Assembly (NCBI GenBank): GCA_029338735.1
Contig: JAQYAY010000023.1
Span: forward strand, 56,886-120,885
DNA: 64,000 bases
Direction of reading: 5' to 3'
Source: Lachnospiraceae bacterium
GTDB taxonomy: Bacteria > Bacillota > Clostridia > Lachnospirales > Lachnospiraceae
Below are positions 25,928 through 62,192 of the stretch, piece after piece; positions within the stretch are counted from its first letter, which is position 1, and each line of letters begins with the position of its first letter. The translations under genes and the position numbers were made by a program. Below the pieces are notes generated by a model. The model was not told the origin of the DNA and did no database searches. It was given only the letters and a program-made list of their open reading frames with translations.

Positions 25928-28900
25928 ATGAAAAATGCAAAACGATTTGCCGCAGCAGTGCTGGCAGGAGCATTGGCATTTACCATGCTTACACCGCAGT
26001 CTGCATTTGCAGCGAAGAAGAAAAAAGCCTCGTATATGACGAGACTGTATGCACTCGAGCAGATCGAGAAAAAGATCGGCGCGACGGAACAGGCAGATGA
26101 TGATGTAATGGCATCTGTCAAGGATGTAAAAAAGGGAACGAAGACCTACAGTATCATGGCAATCGCCATCAAGGCAGGCCTTGTAAAACCAGACAAATCA
26201 GGAAAAGTAAATCCGAAGACAAAAGTCACAAAGAGATATCTTTCAGATGTAGTTTCAAATCTTATAGAGGGTGGCGGTAAACAATCAGATTCTTCAGCTA
26301 AACTCACAAAGAAATCACTAACTTCATTTATCAATAAACAGATTCCGACAGTAGTTTCATCAGACAATGCAAAAATCAAGAAAGGTAATGTCGTAATCAA
26401 AAAGGGCGTCACCCTGAAGGACAAGACCATTGAGGGTAATCTGATCATCGCAGATGGTGTAGGTGACGGAGAGGTTGTCCTTGATAATGTAAAAGTAAAA
26501 GGAGCAATCATTATCCGTTCTGGAAAGACTACTATCAAGGGTAATTCTGAAGCCGGAGGTTCATACATCAGACAGACAAATGAACCTGTCAGTGTAGATA
26601 TTGCAGATTCTGCTAATATAGCTGCGTTCAAGGTTGTAGAGGCCGCAGATAAGGTCAGTATCAGTGGACCGCTTGACTACCTGACAGTAAATGCTGATCA
26701 GGCGGAGATTTCGCTGGAATCTGCAACAATCAGACAGGTAGAAGTCAATGGTATAGCAACTGCTATTAAGGTAGACAAGGATACACAGGTAACTACTGTC
26801 AATATGGAGGGCTCTGCAGCGAAGCTTACAGGCGAAGGAAAGGTAGATACTGTAAATGTCACTGCTAATAATACGACAGTAGCCATATCAGATGCAAAAG
26901 TAAATGTAGCAGAAGGTGTCTCAAAACCTGAAACTACAGACAATTCATCTGAGACGACGAAGCCTGATAATGATGGCAAGAAAGACGAGACAAAGCCGGC
27001 TGAGACAAAACCAGCAACGGACACTCCGTCAACACCATCAACTCCAAGCACTCCATCAACACCGAGTACACCGTCAACACCGGATACACCATCAACACCG
27101 AGTACACCGTCAACTCCGGACACACCATCAAGGCCATCAACTCCAGGTACTTCAACAGGCGGACAGACAAATCCGGGGTCATCAACAGGTGAAGAGACGA
27201 AGCCGGGAAGTGGTTCTACAGGACAGCCAGAAAATCCTACAAAGCCAACAGAACCAACCAAGGATCCGGAACAGGGACAGACAACCGAGCCAGGAGGAAA
27301 GGACAATCCTGGAAAGCAGGAAGAGAAGCCGGGAGAATCAGGAAAACAGGAAGAAAATCCATCAACAAAGCCTGATGAACCGTCAACAAAACCAGAGGAC
27401 CCAGGAACTACTCCTGACGAACCAGCTCCATCTGTGTCTAACGGTCAGTTCTCAGCAAGGGTAGTAAGTGTTACTCCGATAACGAAATACTATAATAATC
27501 AGAAGTATAACCGGATTAAACTTGCTTATAAACTTGATGATTCTGTCAAGGCATCCAAGACAAATCCGGTACAGGTACATTTTGTAGTAGATCCGTACAA
27601 CAGCAAAGAAGTATCAAGCATTGCGGTCCTTTATGGTCATACAGGAAAAGATGTTTCTCATCTCGGATATGCTGAGGGCTATGGAGATATTAAGATTACA
27701 GATAATGAAGAGCATACTGTAAACTGTGATGTATATGACAACGGGAATACCAACTACAATATTTATAGCATATTGCAGTCAGGCGATGAGATATCAAAAA
27801 TGCCTCTTAAGATTACATGTGAAGGTGCTAAGTCAGCGACAGATATTTCTGTCACCGCATACTATAGAGCATATGTAAATAAGACGGGTAACGAGGTTAT
27901 CGTATATTACTACGGCAAGCTGAAATCTACTGAAATCAGTGGATCTGATGGATTTACAATATCTGGAAGTGATGCTCCGACAGTCACTGGTGTTAGCGTG
28001 AGGGAAAATGGAGATTATTCTTATGCTGTCCTTTCGCTTTCAAAAGCAATAACAGCAACATCGACAGAAGATACTGATACAGGGTATCAGATTAGCTTCG
28101 CTGCAGAAAAGAGTCATTTATCTTCCAGTTATGATTATAAACTGGAATCTCAGGATGGAATAAGAATTTATACACCGATAAGTACTGTTACAACAGTGGT
28201 AAAGTCATCTGACAACAAGTTTGTAAAGGTAATAGTACCAGCGGACAATGTAGTTGGTGAAACTTATAATAGTTTTAAATTCTATTCAGGTGATACAGAG
28301 CTGACACAGAGTTATGTCAATAATAACTATGGTGGCGAGACCAGATATTATCTCGTGAATCCTTCTGGTAAGGAAATAGACAGTGTAAGAGTAGTTGGTC
28401 AGGGTGATATTAAAAATGCAGCTCATGACAAGATTGATCTGTCTGATGTCCCAATTCCGGCTGACAGTATTAAAGTGGAAAATGGTATCACATTCAGCAA
28501 AGTGACATATGATAATAATTATAACCGGATAGAAGTTGAGCTGAATGGTTGGGATAATACGTATTCTGAATTCTATGCCAATAATGTCAAAATAATTGTT
28601 GATAGCAAAGAATATAGAGCAAAAGGAATGGGCTATATTAGTACATACGGTGGTGTCACCAGTTTTACCTTAGATGACAATGAGATTCATCATATTGACT
28701 TCAGTAAGGCTTCCAGAATATCAGTTGAATATGATCCTGTAGGTTTGTCAGATAATGCTTCAACGCAGGAAGCAATTCAGGGTCATTATCTGGTAGGCGC
28801 ATCAGGTAAACCGATACAGAAGATAAACTCTGCTAATAGTACTTATGATGATCAGAATTGGCATATGGACTACTCTGTGATTGAGGATAATTCAGGGACA

Positions 28901-29980
28901 TATCTGACACTTTACTATAAGGGTCAGCTTGATACAACAAGCATACCGGATCCATCATGCTTTAAGATTCAGAAATCTGAATATGATGGAGGGGAGTATA
29001 AACTTGTTGATGTGCTCAATAAAGTAGAAGACGTAAAAATATGTCGGGGAAATAAGAGATTTTCATATATGCTTCTTACGCTTGATTCGGCCCTTGATAA
29101 GAATGACAGGTATGTTCTTGAGTATGAATCAGGAGCAAATAACAAATTGAGAAATCTTGCTGATCATGAAGTCGATTTCTATAAGGAATTGGGGCCAAAC
29201 CATTATTTAGATATTGATTCTGGATACGCCCCGGCCTTTAGTGCAGCACTGAGTCTTGATGGCAATTCACTGTGTGTTACAGCACCTTTAAGTCTTGCAC
29301 GTTCTTCTGCAGAGTATACAGATCTCAAGGTGACACTTGATGGAAATGATATATCCGACAGATGTATTGCGGATAAGGTTGACGACTATGATACAGGTGA
29401 TGTAATTCTGTATTTTAATCTTTCGGGATACACAGGAGAAAAGAAAACGGTGTCGGTTTCAGGCAAAGATATCGTTCTTTATGATGCAGATGGTGACAAA
29501 GTGCCACAGGATAAACTACAGGGCGATGTAGTTCAGGATAAAAAGCTGGAATATGGCAGTAATGCTTATTATGATCCAGCAAGGAATAAACTGTATATTG
29601 AGACCAACTATGATAAAGACGATAATTTGATTAACAGCTCTGTATATGAAGGGAATTTTGTGTTCAAATATGAAAATGGAGAACATAGATCATCAAAATC
29701 TGATAGTATTTGGACAATGAAAACGCCATTTTATGACTTAGTGGATAAGGGACTTACACTTGATAAGGTATATCTAGAGGTTGATTGTAATGATCTAGAA
29801 GGACTTGATTTTACTAATATAAGTTCCATCCAGTTTAAATATGATCCTGATACGAAAGAAGATTACAGTTACAGATTAATGAAATATCCAAGCGGTCAGA
29901 AGGTTGCAGCCACGGATTACATTACTCTGAATGTATCACAGCTCGGTCAGAAAGCTGAAGATCAGAAAGATGCTGCCTGA
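25928..29980 (+). CDS. Large secreted surface protein: signal peptide, SLH-like domain, beta-solenoid, TPS-repeat linker, repeated C-terminal domains
   Basis: Signal peptide MKNAKRFAAAVLAGALAFTMLTPQSAFAA; SLH-like SIMAIAIKAGLVKPDKSGKVNPKTKVTKRYLSDVVSNLI; solenoid-like GNLIIADGVGDGEVVLDNVKVKGAIII; TPSTPSTPSTPDTPS linker. Confidence 0.8.
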   Translation: MKNAKRFAAAVLAGALAFTMLTPQSAFAAKKKKASYMTRLYALEQIEKKIGATEQADDDVMASVKDVKKGTKTYSIMAIAIKAGLVKPDKSGKVNPKTKVTKRYLSDVVSNLIEGGGKQSDSSAKLTKKSLTSFINKQIPTVVSSDNAKIKKGNVVIKKGVTLKDKTIEGNLIIADGVGDGEVVLDNVKVKGAIIIRSGKTTIKGNSEAGGSYIRQTNEPVSVDIADSANIAAFKVVEAADKVSISGPLDYLTVNADQAEISLESATIRQVEVNGIATAIKVDKDTQVTTVNMEGSAAKLTGEGKVDTVNVTANNTTVAISDAKVNVAEGVSKPETTDNSSETTKPDNDGKKDETKPAETKPATDTPSTPSTPSTPSTPSTPSTPDTPSTPSTPSTPDTPSRPSTPGTSTGGQTNPGSSTGEETKPGSGSTGQPENPTKPTEPTKDPEQGQTTEPGGKDNPGKQEEKPGESGKQEENPSTKPDEPSTKPEDPGTTPDEPAPSVSNGQFSARVVSVTPITKYYNNQKYNRIKLAYKLDDSVKASKTNPVQVHFVVDPYNSKEVSSIAVLYGHTGKDVSHLGYAEGYGDIKITDNEEHTVNCDVYDNGNTNYNIYSILQSGDEISKMPLKITCEGAKSATDISVTAYYRAYVNKTGNEVIVYYYGKLKSTEISGSDGFTISGSDAPTVTGVSVRENGDYSYAVLSLSKAITATSTEDTDTGYQISFAAEKSHLSSSYDYKLESQDGIRIYTPISTVTTVVKSSDNKFVKVIVPADNVVGETYNSFKFYSGDTELTQSYVNNNYGGETRYYLVNPSGKEIDSVRVVGQGDIKNAAHDKIDLSDVPIPADSIKVENGITFSKVTYDNNYNRIEVELNGWDNTYSEFYANNVKIIVDSKEYRAKGMGYISTYGGVTSFTLDDNEIHHIDFSKASRISVEYDPVGLSDNASTQEAIQGHYLVGASGKPIQKINSANSTYDDQNWHMDYSVIEDNSGTYLTLYYKGQLDTTSIPDPSCFKIQKSEYDGGEYKLVDVLNKVEDVKICRGNKRFSYMLLTLDSALDKNDRYVLEYESGANNKLRNLADHEVDFYKELGPNHYLDIDSGYAPAFSAALSLDGNSLCVTAPLSLARSSAEYTDLKVTLDGNDISDRCIADKVDDYDTGDVILYFNLSGYTGEKKTVSVSGKDIVLYDADGDKVPQDKLQGDVVQDKKLEYGSNAYYDPARNKLYIETNYDKDDNLINSSVYEGNFVFKYENGEHRSSKSDSIWTMKTPFYDLVDKGLTLDKVYLEVDCNDLEGLDFTNISSIQFKYDPDTKEDYSYRLMKYPSGQKVAATDYITLNVSQLGQKAEDQKDAA
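27022..27160 (+). repeat. Short tandem Thr-Pro-Ser coding repeat (linker)
   Basis: Repeated ACACCATCAACACCGAGTACACCGTCAAC units encoding (TPS/TPD)n. Confidence 0.85.
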
Positions 29981-30064: not shown

Positions 30065-30152
30065 GCGGCCTAGGATAGTCACAACTTTTTTCATTTTTTC
30101 CCACAACCCTTGCCCGATGTGATAAAATAGTACAAATCACAAGGAGGTCAAC

Positions 30153-32741
30153 ATGCAGCTGCCAGAGTCAGTAGAAAAAATCATACATACACTTGAGAAC
30201 GCGGGCTATGAGGCCTACGCTGTTGGTGGCTGCGTGCGTGACGTGATGCTCGGGCTGACTCCGGATGACTGGGATATCACGACTTCTGCAGAGCCGGAAC
30301 AGGTCAAGTCGCTTTTTCAGAGAACGATAGATACTGGCATCCAGCATGGTACAGTGACTGTTCGCATGGATGGGAAGAGCTTCGAGGTCACAACATACAG
30401 GATAGATGGCAAGTATGAGGATGGCCGTCATCCGGAAGAGGTCACCTTTACCAAGAGCCTCGAAGAAGATCTGAAGAGACGCGACTTCACAATCAATGCC
30501 ATGGCATACAATGACAGTACTGGTCTGGTGGACCTGTACGGAGGTCAGGAGGATCTGGAGAAAAAGGTCATCCGATGTGTCGGGAATCCTGAGGAGAGAT
30601 TTACAGAAGATGCGCTTCGAATGATGCGTGCTGTGCGATTTGCAGCGAAGCTTGATTTTTCCATAGAAGAAGAAACCCGCAGAGCCATCACCATGCTGAA
30701 GGACAATCTGAGCAAGGTTTCGGCAGAACGTATTCAGGTCGAGCTGACGAAGCTCATCACTTCTGACCATCCGGAGAAGATGTATGACCTGTTTGATACA
30801 GGGCTCACGTCGGTATTTTTCCCAGAATGGGATGAGGCGATGATATGCGATCAGAATACGAAGCATCATATGTATACAGTCGGATGGCACACAATTCATG
30901 TGATGGAAAATGTCCGTCCGGACAAGGCCATGCGGCTGGCAGCAATGCTTCATGATATAGGCAAGCCAGTCGTGAAGCGTTCTGACAAAAAGGACCACAG
31001 CCATTTTCAGGGGCATCCGCAGATGTCAGATGTAATGGCCGACAGGATCCTGAGACGTCTGAAATATGACAATGACACGATTCACAAAGTACGCATGCTG
31101 GTCAGATATCATGACGAACGTCCGGTGCTTAATGATATCACGGTGCGCAGATGCATGAATGAAATGGATCTGGATTTTGCTGATCTGTTCGAGCTGAAAA
31201 GGGCTGATACACTGGCACAGAGCACTTATATGCGCGAAGAGAAGCTGGCCTATATTGATACTTTTGAAAAATTGTATAATGCAAATCTGAATCAGTGCAC
31301 AGACAAAAAGCTCCTTGCCGTAAATGGCGGCGATCTGATACAGGCAGGCATTGAAAAAGGCCCTCAGATGGGGCGTGTGATTGACAGGCTCCTTGAAGAT
31401 GTGATCGAAAATCCTGAGGAGAATACCAGAGAGAATCTGCTGGATAAGGCACATAAATATGACAGACTGGCAAAAGCCGGGAAACTTTTCCTGTGTTTCT
31501 GTGCAGTGATTCTCGTCTTTGCCTCATGCACTCAGAGTGCTCCTCAGGGAAATGTATCATACAGGACACCGGGGACTCCGGCCGCTTCCGCTGATGCGAG
31601 CGGATCAGCGACAAATACATCAAGCCTCAACAAGGTCTATATCATTGAAGAAAATGACAGGAAAAATGACAAGCTCACCGTCATGAATGTTGTGAGCCTG
31701 CAGGAGTTCAGATATCCGTATACGGTACTGACTGAGTTTCTGGACAAGTACGGAGACACAGCGTCAGTAGATGATTTCAAGCCGGGTATGCCGATTACTT
31801 TTGATGCCGGTGGCAGGTATGGAACGCTCACAACAGTCCAGAAAAGCGATTCACTGTGGGAACGGGATGATGTGACCAATTACTCATTCGACGAATCACA
31901 GGAGATGATGAAGATCGGCAATACTGAGTATCATCTTCCGACGACGGCACTTTTTCTTGATGGCAATACGATCACGAGCCTTGATGATATAGAGACCGGA
32001 GTAGATTCTCTGCGCGTGGTCGGGAATGACAAGGAGATCGTGTCAATAGCTGTAGATAAAGGACATGGCTATCTGACTCTGACGGATACAAAGCTTTTTG
32101 ACGGGAGTCTCATCGAGATCGGGACCACTGATATAGAAGAAGTCTCGGACGGCAAGTCAATCGCGCTTCCTGTCGGGACATATAATGTCACAATCGCCAA
32201 CAATGGCTGGGGCGGGACTAAGAAGGTCAGGATAAAAAAGAACGTCGATTCTTACCTGAGTCTTGATTCCATGAAGGGCAGCGGTCCGAAGAAGTGCAGG
32301 CTGACCTTTGAAATTGGCGTGAAAGGCGCTAAAATCTATCTGGATGGCAAAGAAGTCAGGAAAAATAAGGAAATGTCCGTAAACTACGGAGACCATAATC
32401 TGACTGTTGTCGCCGACGGCTATGATACCTGGAGCCGCACTCTTGTTGTCAATTCTAAAAAAGCTACGATCGCTCTGGATATTTCCGACAGCAAAGAAGG
32501 AAATTCTTCATCTTCTTCAGGCACGACATCGGGAACTACATCTTCAGGGACAAGGTCCGGCACGACTCCAAGTGGTACGACTGGCACGACTTCTGGCAGT
32601 ACTTCAACCGGAACAACTGCAGATACGTCATCGTCAGGCAGTTCTTCTTCATCAAAATCGGAGAAAGATAAAGCCGAGGAAGACTATCTTTCGACACTGG
32701 CTGACTCCATCGTGAATTCGCTGTCGTCATCAAGTGACTGA
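30153..32741 (+). CDS. cca: CCA tRNA nucleotidyltransferase read in frame into lipoprotein-like/PEGA-domain/Ser-Thr-rich C-terminal region
   Basis: YAVGGCVRDVMLGLTPDDWDITTSA, RRDFTINAMAYN, AAMLHDIGKP; then LFLCFCAVILVFASC and PEGA-like KIYLDGKEVRKNKEMSVNYGDHNLTVVADGYDTWSRTL. Confidence 0.8.
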   Translation: MQLPESVEKIIHTLENAGYEAYAVGGCVRDVMLGLTPDDWDITTSAEPEQVKSLFQRTIDTGIQHGTVTVRMDGKSFEVTTYRIDGKYEDGRHPEEVTFTKSLEEDLKRRDFTINAMAYNDSTGLVDLYGGQEDLEKKVIRCVGNPEERFTEDALRMMRAVRFAAKLDFSIEEETRRAITMLKDNLSKVSAERIQVELTKLITSDHPEKMYDLFDTGLTSVFFPEWDEAMICDQNTKHHMYTVGWHTIHVMENVRPDKAMRLAAMLHDIGKPVVKRSDKKDHSHFQGHPQMSDVMADRILRRLKYDNDTIHKVRMLVRYHDERPVLNDITVRRCMNEMDLDFADLFELKRADTLAQSTYMREEKLAYIDTFEKLYNANLNQCTDKKLLAVNGGDLIQAGIEKGPQMGRVIDRLLEDVIENPEENTRENLLDKAHKYDRLAKAGKLFLCFCAVILVFASCTQSAPQGNVSYRTPGTPAASADASGSATNTSSLNKVYIIEENDRKNDKLTVMNVVSLQEFRYPYTVLTEFLDKYGDTASVDDFKPGMPITFDAGGRYGTLTTVQKSDSLWERDDVTNYSFDESQEMMKIGNTEYHLPTTALFLDGNTITSLDDIETGVDSLRVVGNDKEIVSIAVDKGHGYLTLTDTKLFDGSLIEIGTTDIEEVSDGKSIALPVGTYNVTIANNGWGGTKKVRIKKNVDSYLSLDSMKGSGPKKCRLTFEIGVKGAKIYLDGKEVRKNKEMSVNYGDHNLTVVADGYDTWSRTLVVNSKKATIALDISDSKEGNSSSSSGTTSGTTSSGTRSGTTPSGTTGTTSGSTSTGTTADTSSSGSSSSSKSEKDKAEEDYLSTLADSIVNSLSSSSD

Positions 32742-62096: not shown

Positions 62097-62102
62097 AAAT
62101 AG

Positions 62103-62192
62103 CGGAGACGAAGGGATTCGAACCCTTGTGCCGCGATTAGGCGACAAACGCATTTCGAGTGCGCCTCGTTATGACCGCTTCGATACGTCTCC
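62103..62192 (-). tRNA. tRNA-Ser (anticodon CGA)
   Basis: Minus strand GGAGACG...CGTCTCC acceptor pairing; anticodon loop CTCGAAA; long class II variable arm; GGGTTCGAATCCC T-arm. Confidence 0.96.

Follow-up and report, generated by a model that had tools for sequence, protein, structure and literature searches.

Does a tRNA nucleotidyltransferase that runs in frame into a lipoprotein signal reflect a sequencing error, two separately initiated proteins, or a genuine fusion? We addressed this question in a Lachnospiraceae bacterium, using a window of 64,000 nucleotides (assembly GCA_029338735.1, contig JAQYAY010000023.1, positions 56,886 to 120,885). A sequence-only reading of the window had described a CCA-adding enzyme continuing in the same frame into a lipobox-bearing signal and a PEGA protein. 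It proposed a membrane-tethered fusion, separate initiation of the lipoprotein, or a frameshift. The observation proved accurate, whereas the interpretation was supported only in part: the frameshift is refuted, separate initiation is not supported in the window, and a genuine membrane-linked fusion is supported, though more likely as a cleaved precursor than as a permanently tethered protein.

One open frame across both halves

We first examined the frame itself. The ORF at 30153-32741 (+) is open under table 11, so that a recoded stop or another genetic code is unnecessary. It encodes 862 residues and is preceded by a consensus Shine-Dalgarno, AAGGAGG, at 30141-30147. Pfam searches placed PolyA_pol at residues 21-141, the RNA-binding domain at 168-229, HD, tRNA_NucTran2_2 at 291-432 and PEGA (PF08308) at 724-772 (32322-32468). 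PEGA scored 28.8 bits, and 31.2 bits in a second search, against a cut-off of 20.8. NCBIfam assigned the protein to CCA tRNA nucleotidyltransferase (NF009814, 328.5 bits against a cut-off of 290). The enzyme part (residues 1-435, 30153-31457) carries the GGCVRD, DWD, RRD and EDALR motifs, indicating a complete CCA-adding enzyme of the class II, Gram-positive type. Between the two halves lies ...LLDKAHKYDRLAKAGKLFLCFCAVILVFASC, with a basic linker (residues 436-444, 31458-31484) that would act as n-region and is predicted to continue the last CCA helix. It is followed by a hydrophobic h-region (residues 445-458, 31485-31526) and by the lipobox cysteine (GKLFLCFCAVILVFAS-C459, 31527-31529), the predicted Lgt/LspA site. 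The part downstream, predicted to be exported and beta-rich (residues 460-784, 31530-32504), is followed by a Ser/Thr/Gly-rich linker (32505-32657) and a C-terminal helix (EDYLSTLADSIVNS, 32658-32723) that is conserved behind the variable Ser/Thr-rich tail.

An AlphaFold2 model based on 13 fused proteins (mean pLDDT 73) shows a well-formed CCA domain, a helix at 426-455 running from the enzyme into the signal, a disordered stretch and then the beta-rich domain. With a deeper alignment the lipoprotein part alone was modelled well (mean pLDDT 86.8). A structure search with this part returned only low-TM matches to beta-rich surface proteins (TM 0.22 for the best E-value), and thus no function was read from it.

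The fusion gene is the only gene of the PolyA_pol family found in this 92%-complete genome, and the lipoprotein part also occurs once; no second copy of either half was found. At least 31 of 32 distinct tRNA genes sampled from loci of this genome, and the tRNA-Ser of the window (62102-62192), do not encode CCA; the 32nd, a tRNA-Val ending in CCCA, is doubtful. It follows that the fusion gene most likely supplies CCA addition for essentially every tRNA, although the activity is inferred from sequence. Lgt and LspA are both encoded in the genome.

Recurrence of the fused frame among relatives

Next we examined whether related genomes carry two separate genes, as an assembly error would predict. 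Searching 60 related genomes showed the fused frame open in 12 of 13 genomes of the genus. The exception, genome G003, has the two genes overlapping in different frames. Fusions also occur in G035, a genome of another genus, in three of 35 species of a further genus, g5 (G370, G434 and G459), and in both genomes of a fourth, g302 (G313 and G465). In a family-wide draw of 397 genomes, ten further long frames (G223, G243, G239, G400, G216, G281, G077, G430, G328 and G157) were checked by translation and are not fusions. Another 80 genomes of this draw showed no fused frame, the longest being 621 aa, leaving about 160 genomes outside the survey. The bearers are mostly uncultured gut and rumen bacteria and most strictly fused genomes are metagenome assemblies. 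However, the fusion recurs in 18 genomes, including independent assemblies from different projects (among the matching records are RUG096, UBA7784, RUG170, RUG335, SUG1620 and LCO1) and the draft genome titled Lachnospiraceae bacterium C10. In G009, another member of the genus, a second cca fragment lies on a separate contig (C64:4475-5401), representing either contamination of the assembly or a second gene.

Unfused relatives carry the two genes as operon neighbours. In 63 named loci with both genes but no fusion, the PEGA lipoprotein gene follows cca, either overlapping or abutting it, or about 1 kb away. In six genomes of other genera (G223, G243, G239, G400, G216 and G281; loci L062 and L070-L074) the lipoprotein gene follows cca in the same frame behind a stop codon, where stop readthrough would give a similar fused protein. 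A tree of 119 CCA proteins requires six changes of the fused state, at least three of them forced by well-supported branches. Fusion from overlapping neighbours has therefore probably happened more than once, though some of the changes could be losses.

Conservation of the internal signal and search for an internal start

We then asked whether the internal signal is maintained. All 18 fused proteins have a hydrophobic segment followed by a lipobox Cys, in a stretch that otherwise varies. The mean hydropathy of the 16 residues before the Cys is 2.20 in the fused proteins, equal to that of the N-terminal signals of 65 unfused relatives (2.20, sd 0.32); the segment of the window has a GRAVY of 2.26. 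The 20 residues before the segment carry on average 4.0 Lys/Arg, against 2.1 in the 20 after the Cys, in line with an N-in topology. Both halves are under purifying selection, with dN well below dS in the enzyme and in the domain predicted to be exported (dN 0.057, dS over 2), although dS is close to saturation and the ratios are only qualitative. The signal segment evolves faster than the enzyme (dN 0.23 against 0.08, comparing the window's genome with its relative G008).

A lipoprotein signal is expected at the N terminus of its translation product, whereas here it lies at residues ~430-459 of the frame. We examined whether translation could start internally. Between 45 and 14 residues before the Cys, three of the six closest relatives of the window (G011, G002 and G010) have no in-frame ATG, GTG or TTG. 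The window and the other three (G008, G004 and G012) have only poor ones, with Shine-Dalgarno energies between -3.5 and +0.7 kcal/mol; in the window the only such codon is a GTG at -42 (-3.5 kcal/mol). In contrast, the sister clade G001, G005 and G006, and also G009, keep an in-frame ATG at -23 with a strong Shine-Dalgarno (-6.5 to -9.6 kcal/mol), making separate initiation plausible there. Lachnospiraceae bacterium C10 keeps the internal ATG, and both a long and a short product are predicted in it. At the codon homologous to the sister clade's ATG, the seven species of the window clade have CTG, ATA, GTT, CTT, CTT, CTT and CTC. Near-cognate codons are present, including a CTG at -29 in the window with a moderate Shine-Dalgarno energy (-5.7), but none is conserved. 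An out-of-frame ATG 68 nt before the Cys codon, which would also require a frameshift, is not conserved beyond the nearest relative. No promoter was found between the halves, and the number of promoter-like sites in the region is what shuffles give. The simplest reading is that the window clade has no separate start, and that the lipoprotein is translated there only as the C-terminal half of the fusion.

A predicted precursor and its alternatives

We favor, with reasonable though not full confidence, a polyprotein. In this view one mRNA start makes a single 862-residue precursor whose N-terminal CCA-adding enzyme folds in the cytosol. As residues ~430-459 emerge, the basic linker and hydrophobic segment would act as an internal signal sequence, inserting N-in/C-out through Sec. 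The PEGA part would then be exported, Lgt would lipidate Cys459 and LspA would cut before it. The products would be a surface PEGA lipoprotein and a cytosol-facing, essential CCA enzyme carrying the old signal peptide as a C-terminal membrane tail, perhaps trimmed later. The fusion would have arisen repeatedly by loss of the stop between two overlapping, co-operonic genes, and would have been tolerated because the signal peptide already provided the cut site. Our analysis demonstrates the single frame and its conservation, the absence of a conserved internal start, the lipobox, the single-copy status and the presence of Lgt and LspA, and synthesis as one chain is strongly supported. CCA addition, membrane insertion, export, lipidation, cleavage into two proteins and the fate of the tail are inferred, and the model presumes that Lgt and LspA accept an internal signal behind a folded 435-residue domain.

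Other explanations appear less likely. The hydrophobic segment could be a permanent anchor with the enzyme inside and the PEGA domain outside, as the helix predicted across the junction and the conserved frame and linker might suggest, but an anchor would not need a lipobox, and the Cys is kept in 18 of 18 proteins across several fusion groups. About equally doubtful is an in-frame nested gene, in which the lipoprotein is also, or mainly, started from an internal codon and the long form is a by-product. The ATG of G001, G005, G006 and G009 and the overlapping genes of many unfused relatives speak for it, whereas the variable homologous codons, the three species without a start codon in the interval, the lack of a conserved near-cognate start and the lack of a promoter-like site just before the second half speak against it in the window clade.

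A relic, in which the lipoprotein half is no longer exported and hangs on the enzyme as a tolerated extension, is very unlikely: the signal segment does evolve faster, but the lipobox Cys and the hydrophobicity are kept and the domain predicted to be exported is under strong purifying selection. An artefact joining two genes, which are separate in most of the family, is all but excluded by the 17 further fused genomes. A more speculative possibility, which we consider unlikely but not excluded, is that the CCA enzyme stays at the membrane after the cut, anchored by the left-over signal peptide, so that tRNA end maturation is physically tied to lipoprotein export and depends on Lgt and LspA.

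Secretion signals are assumed to sit at the start of a protein, and the usual predictors read only the N terminus. Here an essential cytosolic enzyme and an exported lipoprotein appear to be made as one chain in several fusion groups, with intermediate stages still visible: separate genes, overlapping genes, in-frame neighbours divided by a stop, an in-frame nested start and a start-less fusion. If cleavage is confirmed, signal peptidase II is a polyprotein-processing protease, lipoprotein inventories miss such proteins, and blocking lipoprotein processing could affect tRNA maturation in these bacteria. Among the papers searched we found no description of this fusion. The nearest known precedent is fbcH of Bradyrhizobium, in which one gene encodes a cytochrome b/c1 precursor that signal peptidase cuts at a signal peptide between the two proteins. 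There both products are membrane-complex subunits cut by the ordinary signal peptidase, whereas here a lipobox lies between a cytosolic tRNA enzyme and a predicted surface lipoprotein.

Compared with the CCA-adding enzyme of Gram-positive bacteria (NF009814/PRK13299; PF01743, PF12627 and PF13735), the first 435 residues contain all domains and catalytic motifs, but unfused members in the family end at about 440-500 residues. The second half is homologous over the mature part to the PEGA lipoprotein encoded downstream of cca in Lachnospiraceae, for example in the Agathobacter rectalis record annotated CCA tRNA nucleotidyltransferase and PEGA domain-containing protein, where the lipoprotein has its own start codon and an N-terminal signal peptide. 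Phosphoglucomutase follows both in the window and in locus L108, from a Roseburia-like genome. In L108 a 330-residue phosphotransferase-family gene (PF01636; 3746-4738) separates cca from the lipoprotein gene, and other loci with a ~1 kb spacing probably hold the same gene. Directly upstream of the fusion gene, between it and proS, the window encodes a 1350-residue secreted protein (25928-29980) with a weak S-layer-homology match and a long Pro/Thr/Ser-rich stretch.
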